In this document: one piece after another, positions 19,620 to 26,864 of the stretch
Numbering within the stretch: position 1 is the first letter of the stretch
How the letters are laid out: the number at the start of each line of letters is the position of its first letter
Assembly (NCBI RefSeq): GCF_015500095.1
Contig: NZ_CP062983.1
Coordinates: 3,720,001 to 3,784,000 of the forward strand
Direction: 5' to 3'
Origin: Phototrophicus methaneseepsis
GTDB taxonomy: Bacteria > Chloroflexota > Anaerolineae > Aggregatilineales > Phototrophicaceae
Length of the DNA: 64,000 nt
Position numbers and translations under genes: made by a program
Notes under the pieces: generated by a model
Database searches by the model: none
Told to the model about the DNA's origin: nothing
The model's input: only the letters and a program-made list of their open reading frames with translations

Positions 19620-19869
19620 GTAAGACCTGTAATTGAAGTCCTTGAATATCTTACCACGGCACTTTATACAGAACAATGGAGATGAAAATCACGGATGAAA
19701 ACGAATGCGCAGATTAACTACAATCTATTTAGCTATCTATAAATAACAACACGCGGTGAATTGAGCAAGCGTGACATGGCTATAGAACCATCTATAGACC
19801 ATTCCACAAATACAAAAATGATTTGCTGTACAATAAAAGACTTAATTGCCACATTGTAGAATGTACGTC

Positions 19870-21675
19870 ATGACACAACACGCACAGACGAAAAAACATC
19901 CTTTTTTACGCTTATTGCAATACGCAAGTCAACATCGCCGGAATGTTGCTCTGGCAAGTATATTTTCCGTCCTAAACAAAATTGTCGATCTGGCACCCCC
20001 TGCCCTGATTGGTGTCGCAGTCGATATCGTCGTGGAACAAGAAAATTCCTTATTAGCGCGCATGGGTATTGAAGATGTCTTTACGCAGTTACTGGTGCTG
20101 GGCGTCATCACGCTCATCATCTGGGCGCTGGAATCCTTGTTTGATTACCTCAATCGTCTGATCTGGCGTGGTCTCGCCCAGACTATGGAACATCAACTGC
20201 GAATTGATACCTACTCCCATATCCAATCGTTGGAACTCGCCTATTTTGAAGACCAAAGCACGGGCAACTTGATGTCCATTATCAATGATGATGTCAACCA
20301 GCTAGAGCGCTTCCTGGATATTGGGGCTAACAGCTTAATACAGGTTGCGACGACAGTCATCGTCATCGGCGGAGCATTCTTCTTACTAGCACCGTCTGTT
20401 GCATGGATGGCCGTCATTCCCATTCCGGTTATCATCTATGGGTCTATGTGGTTCCAAAAGCAAATTGGCCCCCGTTATAGCGCTGTCCGTGAACAAGTCG
20501 GTGTTTTAAACAGCCAGCTATCTAATAACCTGAGCGGCATCACAACGATTAAGAGCTTCACAGCTGAAGAGCACGAAGTTGCCCGCATCGAAAAAGCAAG
20601 CCAAGCTTACGAGCATCATAACCGCCGTGCCATTGTACTCAGCGCCGCCTTCACCCCCATTATTCGTATGGCGATTGTCGCGGGCTTCCTTGCCATTATG
20701 ATCTTTGGTGGTGACCTTGTCCTCAAAGGCTCCTTGGCCGTAGCAGCTTACAGCACCATGGTCTTTATGACCCAACGCCTGCTCTGGCCCCTCACCACAC
20801 TTGGCGAAACCTTCGACTTGTATCAGCGAGCGATGGCTTCAACAGCACGCATTATGGACCTGCTCGACGTGCAAACGACAATTGTTGATGGCCCTGAACA
20901 ACTGCCAACAAAGCAAGTCAAAGGGAGCGTTAGTTTTGATGATGTTGACTTCGCTTATTCCAATGGAAAGCAAGTGATTAAAGGCTTATCCTTCGATATT
21001 GAAGCCGGAGAAACAGCAGCAATTGTAGGCTCCACAGGGGCCGGCAAGAGTACCATTATCAAGTTGCTCCTACGCCTCTACGATGTGACGTCTGGTAAGA
21101 TCACGCTCGATGGATACGACTTACGGGAACTCAACATCGAAGATTTGCGCAAAGCCATTGGCCTCGTCAGCCAGGATGTTTTCTTATTCCACGGAACCGT
21201 CCGAGAAAATATTGCTTATGGTTCCTTTGGCGCTAGCGATGAAGACATCATTGCAGCCGCCCAAATTGCAGAAGCCCATGATTTCATCTTATCCTTGCCG
21301 GAAGGCTACGATACTGTCGTTGGCGAACGTGGTCAGAAGCTATCCGGCGGGCAGCGGCAGCGCATTTCTATTGCCCGTGCCATACTCAAAAATCCGCCTG
21401 TGCTCGTCTTAGACGAAGCAACTTCTTCTGTGGATAATGAAACAGAGGCCGCTATTCAACGTTCATTAGAGCGCATCATCGTTGGCCGCACCACAATCGT
21501 GATTGCACACCGCCTCTCCACAATCCGCCATGCGGATGTCATCTTCGTCCTTGAAAACGGTAACCTCATTGAACGCGGTCGCCACGAAGAGTTATTGACC
21601 CAACAGGGCCTCTATGCAGCGCTATGGCGTGTCCAGACTGGTGAGAATCCGGCTATGGTTAATAACCCCAAGTAA
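19870..21675 (+). CDS. ABC exporter, fused permease/ATPase (MsbA/LmrA-like)
   Basis: 601 residues from the ATG at 19870; ATG 19861 and TTG 19846 are in-frame alternatives and none has a clear ribosome site. The N-terminal half is a six-helix ABC exporter transmembrane domain (about residues 20-310) with the coupling-helix element [17 protein letters not shown]. The C-terminal ATPase has Walker [10 protein letters not shown], signature [14 protein letters not shown], Walker [13 protein letters not shown] and the H-loop AHRLSTI. It acts as a dimer exporting a lipid, drug or peptide; the substrate cannot be told from sequence. Divergence from the RND gene suggests a shared regulation of two efflux systems. 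Confidence 0.9.
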
Positions 21676-21811: not shown

Positions 21812-22747
21812 TTAGCTTGTTGCTGTCCCTCGATAATGTCGATTACTCAGTTCGCGCAGCTCATCATGATCCAGAACAAGGCCCTGGTTGGGTCGTCCCG
21901 GAGTTTTCAGCAGTAACTGCTCAAGATATTCAACAATGGCTTTAGGATGGTAGCCCTTCTCAAACAGCCGGTCGACCGTTGATTCTTCAAAAACATGGTG
22001 AATCTCAGGATCAATAAACTGAGGCACATGCAACCATAATGGACGTTCCCACCCCAATACGTCATGCAGTACCAGCTCTTCAGCAATTGTTTCAAGAGCG
22101 CTCTCACTCCTGATATGTGTTGTCACTTGCATAAAGTGGTTATCAACCACATTCGCAAAATAAGGCATCGGCATTCCCTCAACAGTTAACAGCGATAGAT
22201 GATCCATTTCACTGCTTTCAAACTGCATCTCGCCCCAGACAGGATCTGTATAAGTGAGCCTTTTATTCTGCTTCACCCGGAGCCGCGCTGTATATTGCTG
22301 TTTAGACGATAAATGCTCTATAACTACGTCATCGTCGTAATCTGCCAGATCAGGCACGATGTTACCGGCCTTATCTGTCGTAAAGAAAGCGTAATCAGCC
22401 TTATCTTCATCAATAAGATAGTGAATGACTTCCTGATAAGAATCATACCGTTCCCGGCGAGCATAAGGATAATACCCACCCAGATCGAGGTGTTCGTCAG
22501 GCTCTAAGTTCAGCCAGGACAACATATTGAAAATTTGTGTTGGGAGTGTAGAACTTAGCGGATCTGGATCACTATCATCCAGATGCACAATGAGGACACC
22601 GCCCGTACTCTTTGCCAGTGTTTTGCCAACCAGCGCTTTACAGGCGTCCTGTAAAGTTAAATATGGCTCAGCACGCAGCGTAACCAGCACAGCTTCCCCA
22701 CACGTTTGGCGCTTCGGCCACTTCATATAAAATGGATTGAGTAACAT
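21812..22747 (-). CDS. Glutamyl-tRNA synthetase-like pseudoenzyme (no HIGH or KMSKS motif)
   Basis: 311 residues from the ATG at 22747 (GGGGGA just upstream). The sequence follows the catalytic Rossmann domain of class I GluRS/GlnRS in order: GGVLIVHLDDSDPDPLSS (family L-R-I-E-D-T-D), GGYYPYARRERYDSYQEVI (family GPYRQSERxxxY), YAFFTT, YTARLRV, then EMDHLSLLTVEGMPMPYFANVVDNHFM (shown by its ends: family D-D-F-V-L-L-R-x-D-G-x-P-T-Y-x-x-x-V-V-D-D). The HIGH region at the N-terminus is replaced by PYLTLQDACKAL, and no KMSKS or anticodon-binding domain is present. ATP and tRNA use are therefore unlikely. It may bind glutamate or an adenylate-like ligand, or serve as a regulator; this is inference. 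Confidence 0.65.
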   Translation of the reverse strand: MLLNPFYMKWPKRQTCGEAVLVTLRAEPYLTLQDACKALVGKTLAKSTGGVLIVHLDDSDPDPLSSTLPTQIFNMLSWLNLEPDEHLDLGGYYPYARRERYDSYQEVIHYLIDEDKADYAFFTTDKAGNIVPDLADYDDDVVIEHLSSKQQYTARLRVKQNKRLTYTDPVWGEMQFESSEMDHLSLLTVEGMPMPYFANVVDNHFMQVTTHIRSESALETIAEELVLHDVLGWERPLWLHVPQFIDPEIHHVFEESTVDRLFEKGYHPKAIVEYLEQLLLKTPGRPNQGLVLDHDELRELSNRHYRGTATS

Positions 22748-22829
22748 AGAATCCCCCACGGATACGTTCTATGTTACTAGATTATGATGGTTATTGTCCT
22801 TAATGTGTCGTCAGTGCGTCGTCTCAATC

Positions 22830-23066
22830 TTACGAATAATAAATACGTTCCCAAATTTGACGAATAACATCTTTTTGATCACGCCACATACGGACATCCA
22901 AGGCTACAGTTTGGGCCTGCTGCAAAACTTCAGGATGTGTATGAAAAAGCCATCTATAAAATTCACTAAAGTTACCCATTACTTTCGTCGTCTCTGCCCT
23001 CAAATGAAGCCGCACAGAATCCTCAAGTTCCCAAAATAACTGCTGCGAGTCCAAGCGAGACTGCAT
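22830..23066 (-). CDS. Small protein of unknown function
   Basis: 78 residues, mostly predicted helical, rich in Trp, His, Arg and Gln (RWLFHTHPEVLQQAQ, WRDQKDVIRQIWERIYY). The ATG at 23066 has a strong ribosome site (GGAGGA, 5-nt spacer), the main support for the gene. It has no signal peptide, membrane segment or recognised motif. It lies 82 bp upstream of the GluRS-like gene on the same strand and may be transcribed with it. Confidence 0.6.
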   Translation of the reverse strand: MQSRLDSQQLFWELEDSVRLHLRAETTKVMGNFSEFYRWLFHTHPEVLQQAQTVALDVRMWRDQKDVIRQIWERIYYS

Positions 23067-23178: not shown

Positions 23179-23229
23179 TTGTCGCCTTTGTGTCGCAATT
23201 CTGTCACAAAGCGACTGCTCTCTTATAGA
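23179..23229 (+). promoter_or_regulatory. Promoter with SARP-box-like direct heptamer repeats
   Basis: Three heptamers, TTGTCGC (23179-23185), GTGTCGC (23190-23196) and CTGTCAC (23201-23207), are spaced by exactly 4 bp, giving an 11-bp period on one DNA face. This is the known layout of SARP activator sites. The third heptamer overlaps CTGTCA (23201-23206), a possible -35, with TATAGA at 23224-23229 as -10 and a 17-bp spacer. The region also forms a near-perfect inverted repeat (GTCGCCTTTGTG at 23181-23192 and CACAAAGCGAC at 23205-23215). It points to the peptide gene downstream, and a SARP-like regulator gene is its convergent neighbour. Confidence 0.6.
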
Positions 23230-23235
23230 AAACTT

Positions 23236-23500
23236 TTGTAATGTGAATACAAAGCGCGATTGAATGATCAATCGCTGGCGGCAAGACAATCACGAATAGC
23301 AGAGGGGAATGGCTATGAAGTGATTTTCAGCGCAAGCCCTGACTGTGAAACAAAGTTTGGCGACCACGTTCACAGCCAGAGCACCACGCAAGCCCAGAGG
23401 GTATTCGGGGCTCGTTCTGATCGTACAGACTTATATGTCGTTCGTCAACGAGCCAACGCCAATCTCACAACCACAAAAATTGAACAATAAAGGGAAAACC
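23236..23500 (+). promoter_or_regulatory. Long untranslated leader of the small peptide gene
   Basis: About 265 nt lie between the predicted transcription start and the ATG at 23501. Two overlapping frames stay open here but neither has a ribosome site, so I treat the stretch as a 5' leader. It ends with the ribosome site AAAGGGA. A structural or attenuation role is possible but not shown. Confidence 0.35.
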
Positions 23501-23647
23501 ATGGACCGCATGATTCAATGGTTGGCAGTTGCTTTGGTTTCGTTCGTACTCATTGCTGGCCCAGCCGTGGACAGCCTGAGCAATATTGCCGGTACAAGCC
23601 ATTCAATTGAAATTGTCAGTGGCGGTACACCGGGCGACTGCTGCTAG
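23501..23647 (+). CDS. 48-residue exported peptide with Gly-Gly and TPGDCC C-terminus
   Basis: The ATG at 23501 is preceded by AAAGGGA at good spacing, and the frame ends TGCTGCTAG. The product has a short charged start (MDRM), a hydrophobic segment (IQWLAVALVSFVLIAG, about residues 5-20), a polar middle, and the C-terminal tail IVSGGTPGDCC. The layout of a signal or membrane segment, a spacer and a short Cys-ending tail after Gly-Gly resembles propeptides of secreted signals or small bacteriocins. It has its own promoter with SARP-like repeats and its own terminator, and faces a SARP-TPR regulator gene. No family was recognised. Cleavage after Gly-Gly to leave the hexapeptide is a hypothesis. 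Confidence 0.6.
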   Translation: MDRMIQWLAVALVSFVLIAGPAVDSLSNIAGTSHSIEIVSGGTPGDCC

Positions 23648-23676
23648 TCGCAGACAACACATACACTAAATAACTC

Positions 23677-23706
23677 AGGGAATCAGGCTTATCTGATTCC
23701 CTTTTC
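23677..23706 (+). terminator. Intrinsic terminator of the peptide gene
   Basis: GGGAATCAG (23678-23686) and CTGATTCCC (23693-23701) form a perfect 9-bp stem with a 6-nt loop, followed by a TTTTCTTT run on the plus strand. The minus-strand side lacks a good T run. Confidence 0.88.
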
Positions 23707-23741
23707 TTTAGAGAAGCCTACCCTAATAGGAATAACATGGC

Positions 23742-26700
23742 TCAATCTATTTCCAACAATTCCACAAGTGCATCGACAACACGAAAGTGATGTAGTTCAG
23801 GGAAGTTATCCAATCCATATTGAAAGAAGAAAGCCGTTCTATCTAGATGGAAACGTGTAATCGAGCAATCTTTTAATTGCGCAATCTGGTCCCCGAGTAA
23901 AGCCTTTAACCGTCCTACTGTCTCTTCAGTATCGTCAGGCCCTATAATCCATTCCTGCGCCAATACAATAATACTCAAACAATACAACGCCTCTGCAATT
24001 AAAAAAGCAACATCTAGCTTAACAGCGCTATCCAGAGCATGCTTGGCATAACGCTGTGCATCAGCCCAGTTATGGTACTGGAATTCGAGTTTAGCTAAGT
24101 CAATTGCAAAATCGACCGCAAGCCTGGAAGAAACCAACCGAGACGAGAGGATCAGAGCGCGCTTAAATGAGGCTTCAGCGCGGACACGATAATGTTCAGC
24201 AGCTTCTACACGTCCCATACTACGCGCAATATTGGCAATCAGTTCTTGGTGCTGTAGTCGTTCGGCGATATCTGAGGCACGGTTAAGATGAAGTCGCGCA
24301 TCATGAAATCGCCCCAAATAAAAACTTGTAATCCCCAGGTTCAAATTAATATAGCCCTGCCGTTCAAAGTTACCAATCTGCGCAGATAAAGTTTGCGCCT
24401 GCAAGAAGTAATCGAACGCGGCCTCAAAGTCGACAAGTTCCAACCGAATCACACCAAGGGCCGTCACTGAATAGAGCTCGACATGTGGGTTGTTTACTTG
24501 GCGCGCAAGCTCGAGACTTTCCTCCACATAGACACTTGCTTGGTCAAACTTGTTATCAAATATTTCTGTCGAGCCAAGATTCGCTAAAACAGTGCAGAGA
24601 ATGCTTAGATCACCACTCTGGCGCGCATACTGTTTTGCCATCTCCAGATGACGGCGAGACTGCTCTATAGGATAGCTTTTCCTGATGATGATACCCAATT
24701 GCTCATGGATACCAGCCAATAAACTCACTGACTGAGTAGATTCAGCCTGTTCTAGAGCGCTCTGCAAATGCATGCCAGCATCTTCAAATTCACCCTGCTT
24801 AACATCGAGCTTAGCAATGTTAAGCAGCAATTCAGCTTGCATTTCCACATCAACTTCAGATAGCGTCGTCTCAGCCCCACTTAACAAGCGGCGCGCAAAA
24901 TAATACTGTCCACGTGCGATCAAATATGGGACAAAGCGGTTAATGCGGCTAATACCAACAGCATCCAACTCAAAGCAAAAATCGAAAGCGCGCAATATGT
25001 TACGATAATGCTGGTCCAGCAACTCAAACTGGTTTGAATACATTTCTAAATAGCCAAATTCAATCCGGCAAAATTGCGATCGTAAGTATTCCTTATAGGA
25101 TTCATGGCTTGGCAAATTTTGGGCATCTAATGCGCGCAAATACGTACGCGTCAGAGGATGTATCTGATAACGGCCTTCTTCATAATCAATGATGCCGATT
25201 TGACCTAATTTTTTGAGCATGAGTTCAAGTTCGATTTTCGATAGCCGATCTTCCATGCGGTCCAAATCCGCGAGTTGGGGGCCCTCCAATGGATCAAATT
25301 GCAAAATCATAGCAAGAACGAACTTCATGCGTCCTTCCAGCAGTTGCCAGCACCATGCCATCAAGGGATTTTCCGATACAGTCCCTTCAACCTGTGCGAT
25401 TGCATCTGCAATGGATAACTTATAAGCACGGATACTACTAGCCAATATCCTCAATGAAAGCGGTTTACCCTGGGTGACGTTCAGCAACCTGTGAGCATGG
25501 ATGGAAACATCATCGCCAATGCTTTTTTCCTGCTCCATGTATTTTGAGAAGATGCGAGCAACGATCTCAGGCGATGAAATAGGCTGAAGCGCCACATCGA
25601 AGGTATCATTCCAGGCTTCATAAGTACAAACAATCGTTGGGACATGCTCACTCAGCAACTTAATACGGCTTTGCATCTCATGATCAAAAACTTGACCGGA
25701 TTCTTGTTGATCAAGAACGAGTAAATAATCACCTTCATCCAGCAGATTCTCAATGCTCAGATACTTGTTCCGATAATCCAGTGCCACAATTGGCGATTTA
25801 TCCGCTTTTAAAGCAATTGTATTGAGCAAATCTTCAAAATCTGTTTTGAACGTCATCTTAATGTAGATCGTTCGATCAACGAGCTTACCACGCTGACAAG
25901 CAAAGCCAACAGCTCTGGCAAACTCAGACTTACCCATCCCCTGCTCGCCAGAAACCGTCAATACAGACGCTGTATGTTTTGTAAACAAGGCCTCAAAAAC
26001 AGTTTCAAGCTCAGCATCACGCCCAATAACAATGCCACCGGCCCAGATTTTCAGATCATGGATATTGACCCGTGCCACTGTATCCAGCTTGAGAACACCC
26101 AATTCAGGCTGAACGCCACGATCAAAGAGCTGCTTCCAGCCTACAGAAGGGTAACCTATGATGTTGGAGTCGTTTAATTCAACTTCAGTCAGGATATCCC
26201 AATATTGCAGCATTTGCGTATGACGCTGCGTATGCGCAGATAACCAGATCAAATATTGCAGTGGCAAATTCGCGGTTGGCAAGCTCTCATGCCAACGAAC
26301 CGCATACTTGAGCGCAGCCTCATAATTGCCAAAAGTAATCTCATTCTGGATGAGCTTTTCAAGTAACTGGTGAAAACGTGACCTAAGGGCATCATAGTGC
26401 TTTTGCATCCAGGGCTTGAGGCCACGTCGCTTAGAGCTTAAGCCGTAATCTTGCAAGAAATCTTCTTGATATAAATCATAAGCTTGCTTCAGTGAGGTAT
26501 GTACACGCTTTCGTGCTGCAAGCGTCTTTTGTTCAGCTGTCACATCTGATAAGGCAATAAATTCCTGTACATCGATCCAAACCTGGCTGCCATCATAGCT
26601 AAGCGTTGTGCGCTCTGCTTTAATGCATAAATCCCTAACCGATTTCGACAAGCTATGAAGGGCGTGCTTACGAAAGCTTTCCTTATTTGCATCTGTCAGG

Positions 26701-26864
26701 CTCTCATAAAGAACCTGAGTTAAGTGATCGCGATCATAGCTTGGTTTATTTTCAAGCGCCAGATAGATGAGTAAATCTAAGGAAGCTTCTGGGATATCCA
26801 GGTTTTTACCATCCAAGTCAACGATAGGCCTACCGGCCAGCAGTTGTATTCTTAGAACTGACAT
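23742..26864 (-). CDS. SARP/AfsR-like STAND transcriptional regulator with BTAD, NTPase and TPR domains
   Basis: 1040 residues; the ATG at 26864 has a G-rich ribosome site (GGGGGAG). Residues 1-95 resemble a SARP/OmpR-type winged-helix DNA-binding domain (LDLLIYLALENKP, then HALHSLSKSVRDL). Residues about 100-260 resemble the BTAD helical domain (AYDLYQEDFLQDYGL). An NB-ARC/STAND NTPase follows, with GRDAELE, Walker A SGEQGMGKSEFARA (about residue 307) and Walker B YLLVLDQQ. The C-terminal 400 residues are TPR-like repeats (LGITSFYLGRFHDARLHL and others), the usual ligand- or peptide-sensing part. It should be a ligand- and ATP-dependent activator. It is convergent with the peptide gene, whose promoter carries SARP-type direct repeats. 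Confidence 0.85.
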   Translation of the reverse strand: MSVLRIQLLAGRPIVDLDGKNLDIPEASLDLLIYLALENKPSYDRDHLTQVLYESLTDANKESFRKHALHSLSKSVRDLCIKAERTTLSYDGSQVWIDVQEFIALSDVTAEQKTLAARKRVHTSLKQAYDLYQEDFLQDYGLSSKRRGLKPWMQKHYDALRSRFHQLLEKLIQNEITFGNYEAALKYAVRWHESLPTANLPLQYLIWLSAHTQRHTQMLQYWDILTEVELNDSNIIGYPSVGWKQLFDRGVQPELGVLKLDTVARVNIHDLKIWAGGIVIGRDAELETVFEALFTKHTASVLTVSGEQGMGKSEFARAVGFACQRGKLVDRTIYIKMTFKTDFEDLLNTIALKADKSPIVALDYRNKYLSIENLLDEGDYLLVLDQQESGQVFDHEMQSRIKLLSEHVPTIVCTYEAWNDTFDVALQPISSPEIVARIFSKYMEQEKSIGDDVSIHAHRLLNVTQGKPLSLRILASSIRAYKLSIADAIAQVEGTVSENPLMAWCWQLLEGRMKFVLAMILQFDPLEGPQLADLDRMEDRLSKIELELMLKKLGQIGIIDYEEGRYQIHPLTRTYLRALDAQNLPSHESYKEYLRSQFCRIEFGYLEMYSNQFELLDQHYRNILRAFDFCFELDAVGISRINRFVPYLIARGQYYFARRLLSGAETTLSEVDVEMQAELLLNIAKLDVKQGEFEDAGMHLQSALEQAESTQSVSLLAGIHEQLGIIIRKSYPIEQSRRHLEMAKQYARQSGDLSILCTVLANLGSTEIFDNKFDQASVYVEESLELARQVNNPHVELYSVTALGVIRLELVDFEAAFDYFLQAQTLSAQIGNFERQGYINLNLGITSFYLGRFHDARLHLNRASDIAERLQHQELIANIARSMGRVEAAEHYRVRAEASFKRALILSSRLVSSRLAVDFAIDLAKLEFQYHNWADAQRYAKHALDSAVKLDVAFLIAEALYCLSIIVLAQEWIIGPDDTEETVGRLKALLGDQIAQLKDCSITRFHLDRTAFFFQYGLDNFPELHHFRVVDALVELLEID

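Follow-up and report, generated by a model that had tools for sequence, protein, structure and literature searches.

A Cys-tailed mini-peptide gene recurs beside AfsR-type regulators and degenerate aminoacyl-tRNA synthetases in the order Aggregatilineales

A 64,000-nucleotide window of Phototrophicus methaneseepsis (contig NZ_CP062983.1, positions 3,720,001 to 3,784,000 of the forward strand), lying in a 5.63-Mb genome of one contig, carries a 48-residue peptide gene that faces the gene of an AfsR-type regulator, with a degenerate glutamyl-tRNA synthetase (GluRS) paralogue on the peptide's other side. We found that all nine regulators of this family are accompanied by a synthetase paralogue and six of them by a small Cys-tailed peptide. 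In the reading that we favour, with a probability of about 0.4, these genes make up a peptide cassette that diverges fast, is autoregulated and is controlled by the regulator, and in which the peptide is most likely an extracellular signal. Below, positions without a locus number are those of the window, G000 is the genome of the window, G001, G009, G004 and the like are its relatives, and L numbers are their loci. The three genes are as follows.

23501..23647, plus strand: 48-residue peptide gene, with a signal-peptide-like hydrophobic N-terminus, the tail SGGTPGDCC and the x5-G-x-C motif SGGTPGDC
23742..26864, minus strand: 1040-residue AfsR-type regulator, with an N-terminal SARP region with BTAD, an NB-ARC domain with intact Walker A (GEQGMGKS) and a TPR array
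21812..22759, minus strand: pseudo-GluRS, a class I catalytic domain alone, with HIGH replaced and the KMSKS loop deleted

A peptide gene convergent with an AfsR-type regulator

The peptide frame opens with the ATG at 23501, closes with the stop codon at 23645-23647 and encodes MDRMIQWLAVALVSFVLIAGPAVDSLSNIAGTSHSIEIVSGGTPGDCC. The first-pass annotation of this DNA had described a 48-residue gene with a hydrophobic N-terminus and a Cys-Cys tail convergent with a 1040-residue regulator, and both the pair and its coordinates were confirmed, with a gap of 94 bases between the genes. It had also credited the peptide gene with its own ribosome site, promoter and terminator; the terminator is present as a strong hairpin (23677-23702), G000 has a weak ribosome site (AAAGGGAAAACC-ATG) and G009 a better one (AAGGAGA), and no promoter was called on the plus strand near 23230 by a sigma-70 scan. 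In G000, translation from an in-frame GTG at 23345 would give a longer product of 100 residues. As the G009 peptide frame has no in-frame start further upstream, the 48-residue form is supported.

Pfam and NCBIfam scans gave no match for the 48-residue product. A peptide search of 61 relatives returned a G001 peptide (52% identity, E = 2.9e-9) and no other convincing match, and a third peptide, MNRVRNLLAATIILIVLVGGTMAQHTLSTLPTQSIFQTSGFPGNCC of G009, surfaced in an open reading frame (ORF) scan of the regulator locus. In all three genomes the peptide and regulator genes are convergent, with a hairpin after the peptide (fold z of -4.1, -2.5 and -2.2 in the G000, G001 and G009 loci). The G000 and G001 peptide genes differ by 21, 14 and 32 at codon positions 1, 2 and 3, respectively, and 16 of the 25 identical residues are encoded by different codons. 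These codon-position differences, together with the recurrence of Cys-tailed peptides beside related regulators (see below), indicate that the peptide gene is more than chance. A peptide-profile search of 396 genomes of the class gave strong matches only in G000 and G001, G009 being outside the draw; its weaker matches were dismissed by frame length.

Of the domains expected in the regulator, Pfam matched BTAD (28.2 against a cut-off of 22.1), NB-ARC (23.6 against 23.5), AAA and TPR_12 (50.5 against 30.1, E = 2.4e-13), while a winged helix was called for the more distant relative in G220 and not for the G000 protein. A PADLOC scan returned a generic TPR match only. Walker A is present in all eight readable family regulators and in that of G220. 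Regulator matches at E<=1e-10 occur in 22 of the 61 relatives and are mostly partial, two of them being full-length homologues, from G009 (about 36-37% identity) and G001 (28%).

The peptide recurs beside most regulators of one family

We searched 154 genomes of the order with a profile built from the three regulators, five candidates being scored per genome. Fifteen genomes matched at E<=1e-25, eight of them at full length with E<=4.9e-89, and the next match stood at 6.6e-34; the family cut was set after this gap had been seen, and three of the eight are the profile's own rows. With a second copy in G815, the family comprises nine regulators in eight genomes. They are 1037-1077 residues long, apart from the longest frame of G009 (1137) and the second G815 copy (G815b), which is cut.

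Peptides were sought at these loci with a filter requiring an ATG, 28-80 residues, a hydrophobic start, ribosome-site-like bases and a Cys tail. A Cys-tailed peptide lies <=1 kb from six of the nine regulators: those of G000, G001, G009, G851 (two peptides), G806 and the first G815 copy (G815a). The first-pass annotation had proposed searching relatives for similar tails beside SARP-TPR regulators, and had named a frame or tail unconserved among them as evidence against its idea; the peptide does travel with the regulator, and the pair recurs at these six loci. In G813 and G815b the contig breaks off on the 3' side of the regulator, the side that bears the peptide in G806 and G815a. Elsewhere in the nine loci the filter made no match. 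In 39 background loci (544,489 bases), taken from around other SARP/TPR regulator matches plus L278, it made two, and thus most of these other SARP/TPR regulators have no such peptide; the filter, with its loose list of ribosome sites, had been shaped on peptides found beforehand, so these background counts are controls and not independent tests. The two background peptides are convergent with and 187 bp after a SARP-BTAD-NB-ARC-TPR regulator in G220, and about 0.4 kb from NB-ARC/TPR-like frames, apparently broken, in G379.

The motif x5-G-x-C stands near the C-terminus of all nine peptides compared, including that of G220 and one from a more distant G004 regulator. The octapeptides are SGGTPGDC, GGGDPGFC, TSGFPGNC, CEPSMGTC, CEYGPGTC, CEGYPGSC, CPGNPGTC, CDWAAGHC and SPKGPGPC, often of the form C-x4-G-x-C. 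This comparison took nine of 11 candidate peptides, each read from the first M in its frame, and left out the G379 peptide, which fits by eye, and the second G004 peptide, which does not fit. The other eight peptides are 39-54 residues long. Among 45 hydrophobic short background ORFs, G-x-C falls within the last eight residues of one, namely the G220 peptide.

Tandem peptides were seen twice: G851 carries two related Cys-loop peptides before its regulator (L212 7414-7569 and 7889-8044), and G004, whose regulator has a TGA inside its frame, carries two related ones (L216 8534-8828), the second without x5-G-x-C. The G220 genome, from another family of the class, has an exported-looking gene (L225 7510-7629, minus strand) ending in SCDWAAGHCGG and convergent with its regulator, and its 7.9-kb contig gave no synthetase match. 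Judged from G220, peptide and regulator may have been paired before the synthetase became linked to them. In a phylum-wide regulator search, most of the matches listed are without the SARP part and three include it; two of these three, G378 and G231 (L220 and L221), have no synthetase or peptide match nearby, and the third, G069, was left out.

The ABC exporter at 19846-21675 was considered as a further cassette part and rejected, for it adjoins in G000 and G001 but its best match in G009 lies about 640 kb away. By eye, the right-hand flanks differ among G000, G001 and G009. Inspection by eye of the region downstream of the G009 pseudo-GluRS (L063 2388-6908, minus strand) suggests a TIR-like/NTPase/FGE-like protein together with a small regulator of BTAD-like type.

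Degenerate synthetases of two classes adjoin the regulator

The third part of the cassette, a degenerate aminoacyl-tRNA synthetase, was absent from the first account of this locus. A GluRS catalytic-domain protein of 315-363 residues lies on the peptide's other side in G000, G001 and G009; in the window its start is probably the ATG at 22747 rather than the GTG at 22759. In the alignment, HIGH is absent from all three cassette copies (LTLQDA, LALQDA and LPVSDT against MHIGNL in the GltX of G000 and G001), and the KMSKS loop is deleted from all three, against KLSKR in the three host GltX proteins; the G009 GltX, read from an internal Met, shows KLSKR only, and those of G000 and G001 show both motifs. 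On NCBIfam, two of the three Glu-type copies were scored, the G001 copy being left out, and reached 111.8 and 184.7 against the gltX_bact cut-off of 289.95, the GluQ-RS models also staying under cut-off. All six synthetase-like proteins scanned fall under NCBIfam cut-offs; synthetase models top every list, and no cyclodipeptide synthase (CDPS) or LanB model is among the matches. A first structure model of the pseudo-GluRS (3 sequences, pLDDT 35) was discarded. With 28 true GltX rows added, the model reached pLDDT 85.6 and a fold search matched it to GluRS structures, the modelled fold being partly lent by those rows.

A synthetase paralogue adjoins all nine family regulators, three being GluRS-like (class I) and six lysyl-tRNA synthetase (LysRS)-like (class II), and the degenerate synthetase is thus the regulator's most constant partner. 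In all five new family genomes (G851, G806, G821, G813 and G815) the adjoining gene is of the LysRS-like class; that of G815 is truncated by the contig end, with about 144 residues matched. A second LysRS-like gene of G815, found by a search with one of the cassette LysRS-like proteins, is divergent from the second regulator. This second pseudo-LysRS/regulator cassette (L277 8834-10252 and 10540-11072) is, on sequence grounds, a recent copy, as its regulator shares 75% identity with the first over the readable start. The tree of regulators places the three Glu-type rows together (92/92, just under the tool's star) and likewise four Lys-type rows (100/100), with the placement of G851 unsure.

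Motif loss in the Lys type was judged on five proteins, the cut G815a copy being left out. FRxE of motif 2 is lost in four and kept in G851, and HN.EFT is lost in all five; in motif 3 (GGFGMG-DR) the Gly-rich part is lost in all five and DR is kept in four, G806 being without the motif 3 Arg. The G851 copy is the least decayed. Signature motifs are therefore lost in all eight paralogues of both types that are long enough to judge. Separate LysS copies occur in seven of the eight family genomes (G009 gave no match at 1e-10), and the six aligned have the motif 2 and motif 3 signatures. To judge by these motifs, the cassette paralogues are most likely catalytically dead.

A GluRS-like frame of 383 residues in G040, which ends near its contig end, was set aside after ORF listing; in a phylum-wide GluRS search, all matches listed except G000's own have frames of >=459 residues; in plasmid records, the matches listed are annotated gltX genes (one unannotated) and TPR-type matches; and the viral contigs searched held no relative. 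A further small gene lies upstream of the pseudo-GluRS; a homologue of its product (45% identity) occupies the same place in G009, and none was found in G001.

22830..23066, minus strand: gene of a 78-residue small protein, with no Pfam or NCBIfam match

The cassette diverges far more than its surroundings

Between G000 and G001, of the same genus, left-flank and host proteins are highly similar (ABC exporter 83%, MMPL 73%, GltX 84% identity), whereas the pseudo-GluRS, regulator and peptide share 27%, 28% and 52%. Cassette identity so far under that of the flank and GltX within one genus suggests that the cassette has been replaced or is fast-diversifying. With G009, of another genus, the pseudo-GluRS shares 42%, the regulator about 36-37%, the peptide 38% and GltX 61%. 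The peptide N-terminus follows genus, and the G000 tail (PGDCC) is nearer to that of G009 (PGNCC) than to that of G001 (PGFCCS), as is the regulator; with three genomes, this tracking of tail and regulator likeness is only a hint.

Repeats and other signals around the peptide gene

The following elements lie around the peptide gene and the pseudo-GluRS.

23180..23208, plus strand: three heptamer direct repeats (TGTCGCC, TGTCGCA, TGTCACA) with an 11-bp period, SARP-box-like, upstream of the peptide
22795..22823, plus strand: second repeat array (TGTCCTT, TGTCGTC, CGTCGTC) with an 11-bp period, between the 78-residue gene and the pseudo-GluRS start
23224..23229, plus strand: -10-like TATAGA, 15 bp past the last repeat, a putative peptide promoter on which the consensus scan makes no call
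23391..23418, plus strand: leader stretch AGCCC...GGGGCT, common to G000 and G009 across genera, a possible hairpin
23677..23706, plus strand: terminator (hairpin plus T-run) in the gap where the peptide and regulator genes converge

Both arrays are built as heptamer-N4-heptamer-N4-heptamer and are the only three-copy sites in the 64 kb on either strand. Repeats with this 11-bp period were found in cassette intergenic regions of seven of the nine loci, as three copies in five (G000, G009, G813, G815a and G815b, the two G815 arrays being recent copies of each other) and as two copies only in G001 (two places) and G821. The pattern, drawn from G000 and G001, had a background of 19 three-copy and 121 two-copy matches in 2,041,172 strand-bases. 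The shared leader stretch folds little better than shuffles (z of -1.7 in G000 and -1.0 in G009), and an Rfam scan of the 260-nt leader (L001, L010 and L011) for a known RNA gave nothing relevant. Before the G001 pseudo-GluRS there is a perfect inverted repeat with 15-bp arms (AGATATTCTCTAGTT...AACTAGAGAATATCT, L062 8172-8204).

Discussion

The conservation and linkage of the cassette, the motif loss of its synthetases, its repeats and its divergence pattern are established, and the mechanism that we favour connects them. In this mechanism we infer export of the peptide, control of the cassette promoters, a ligand role for the peptide and a partner role for the synthetase. The regulator would bind the 11-bp-spaced direct repeats and turn the cassette genes on, its targets being the dead-synthetase gene and, at least in G000, the gene of the Sec-exported mini-peptide. 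The mature peptide, with its C-terminal x5-G-x-C octapeptide (SGGTPGDC-C in G000), would act outside the cell as a signal and be perceived, directly or via a partner, by the TPR sensor of the regulator, giving positive feedback. The dead synthetase would most likely act in the cytosol as a partner protein and hold the STAND regulator or tune it, like MalY and Aes with MalT. Plausible cleavage sites read by eye (THA-C in G815, AHA-A in G004, VSA-S in G806) would leave a mature peptide of about 10-26 residues. The peptide-signalling interpretation had been raised by the first-pass annotation; the linkage at six of nine loci agrees with it, as do the SARP-type repeats that G000 and G001 carry upstream of the peptide, and the RRNPP systems that it named for comparison differ in the size of the receptor.

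Several observations weigh against this mechanism. Export is predicted by eye and from hydropathy. Among the six peptide-bearing cassettes, only those of G000 and G001 show clear arrays upstream of the peptide; in the Lys-type cassettes the repeats lie between the pseudo-LysRS and the regulator, the G806 cassette has none, and in G851 a single two-copy match, well upstream of the first peptide, was not counted. A pattern-free test for three copies at 11 bp stands out only in G000 (reached by 1 of 300 shuffles, against 84 of 300 in G001 and 104 of 300 in G009), and the gap of 15 bp from the last repeat to TATAGA, the presumed -10, departs from the 8 bp of the SARP rule given below. The parts also come apart: G821 has a regulator and pseudo-synthetase and no peptide by the filter, the 14.6-kb contig of G004 gave no synthetase match, the cassette holds no importer, and the ABC exporter beside it is not carried along.

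In a bolder proposal, the cassette represents a peptide system of a new type, found in Chloroflexota: two unrelated dead synthetases, class I Glu-type and class II Lys-type, may have been recruited into one cassette to act on or with the secreted x5-G-x-C mini-peptide, either as aminoacyl-tRNA-dependent peptide modifiers without ATP activation or as a cytosolic peptide receptor gating the AfsR-type STAND activator; we hold this proposal to be possible but doubtful.

Other readings of the cassette were weighed. It may encode a bacteriocin, the Cys-loop peptide harming relatives, the regulator acting as activator and the dead synthetase giving immunity, for example as a decoy of a targeted Glu- or Lys-tRNA synthetase. 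That sister species differ so strongly at a syntenic site would fit, as would two synthetase classes matched to different peptide targets and mature peptides that, by eye, are short and have Cys loops, but the ABC exporter next door does not travel with the cassette, the peptides have no obvious membrane-active charge pattern by eye, and nothing indicates a synthetase as the peptide's target, which makes this reading unlikely. We consider somewhat less likely still a maturation like that of ribosomally synthesized and post-translationally modified peptides, in which a pseudo-synthetase that no longer activates an amino acid would use aminoacyl-tRNA to add or transfer a residue onto the peptide before export. 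A precedent is TglA, a 50-residue peptide extended by Cys from tRNA (PMC9016710), and the loss of ATP motifs with a GluRS fold modelled as kept would suit such a role. The Cys residues of our peptides are, however, already encoded, two unrelated folds would need the same chemistry, FRxE is lost in four of five pseudo-LysRS copies with the motif 3 Arg also missing in G806, and no candidate catalytic residues could be proposed.

A pair resembling AfsR-AfsS, in which the small product stays inside the cell or anchored in its membrane as a regulator and is not an exported signal, would fit the AfsR domain order, the repeat-type sites and the small gene adjoining the regulator, just as afsS adjoins afsR. 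Against it, the signal-like N-termini, the plausible cleavage sites (by eye) and the Cys-rich C-termini look exported, and the peptide has no charged cytosolic domain; we find this improbable. That the peptide and regulator are chance neighbours, with a short frame that is no gene or an accidental linkage, is very hard to credit: the family is small (eight of 154 genomes of the order), but the codon-position pattern, the recurring tail, the background control and a constant neighbourhood despite different outer flanks all speak against chance.

Compared with known systems, our favoured peptide cassette is closest to AfsR-AfsS of Streptomyces (SARP-NOD-TPR). Targets of large SARPs have direct repeats 11 or 22 bp apart, the 3' repeat lying 8 bp from the -10, and AfsR recognizes 11-bp direct repeats at the afsS promoter, its NOD and TPR parts inhibiting the SARP domain (PMC10936776). 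Both systems have this regulator domain order, 11-bp repeats and a small gene under (here, putative) control, so that a SARP-STAND-TPR regulator controlling a small gene has a precedent. Our cassette differs in that its small product looks exported and has a Cys tail, a degenerate synthetase adjoins, the genes are convergent and the 8-bp spacing is missing. The RRNPP criteria are a propeptide of 10-100 residues exported by Sec, a TPR receptor of 250-500 residues and adjacent genes (PMC10075063). A small exported-looking propeptide (48 residues) adjoining a TPR regulator resembles these RRNPP/RRNPPA systems of Firmicutes, but the candidate receptor has 1040 residues with NB-ARC and SARP parts, the phylum is another and there is an extra pseudo-synthetase; the cassette is not an RRNPP member.

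For the synthetase, the likeness is to MalT, a STAND activator on which two unrelated enzymes, MalY and Aes, keep a hold, with MalK as a further inhibitor (PMC10427625). By analogy, the enzyme-like proteins beside our STAND activator are candidate modulators, but they are encoded in the cassette, have lost their active-site motifs and are known here from genes alone. In overall sequence and fold (by fold search for the Glu type) they resemble GluRS or GluQ-RS (YadB) and LysRS or EpmA, and differ from true GluRS in missing HIGH and KMSKS and from true LysRS in a degenerate motif 2 and Gly-rich motif 3. PEARLs, CDPSs and AcmF/SbzA offer a looser parallel as tRNA-dependent, partly synthetase-like enzymes of peptide and natural-product pathways; PEARLs are described as LanB-like and CDPSs as resembling Tyr/TrpRS (PMC12945691). 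The cassette synthetases match neither of these two families. Among the matches listed from the open-licence literature, no paper treats the combination of peptide, SARP regulator and synthetase, or a peptide ligand of a large SARP. To our knowledge, peptide signalling of this build is not described outside Firmicutes, no large SARP has a peptide ligand, and AfsR-AfsS involves neither a synthetase nor an exported Cys peptide. Since RRNPP fails on receptor size and AfsR-AfsS, as far as we know, lacks the synthetase and the exported Cys peptide, we regard the three-part assembly as new; taken singly, its parts all belong to familiar folds or types.

Should the peptide prove to be the ligand, a class of natural inducers would be at hand for AfsR-type regulators, and orphan regulators of the SARP-STAND-TPR build could be tested. 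Dead synthetases of two classes beside one regulator family raise the question of their binding partner, and either of the roles proposed for them, if true, would tie cell-cell signalling to the tRNA-charging machinery. With its short and defined parts, the system could be rebuilt in a laboratory host.

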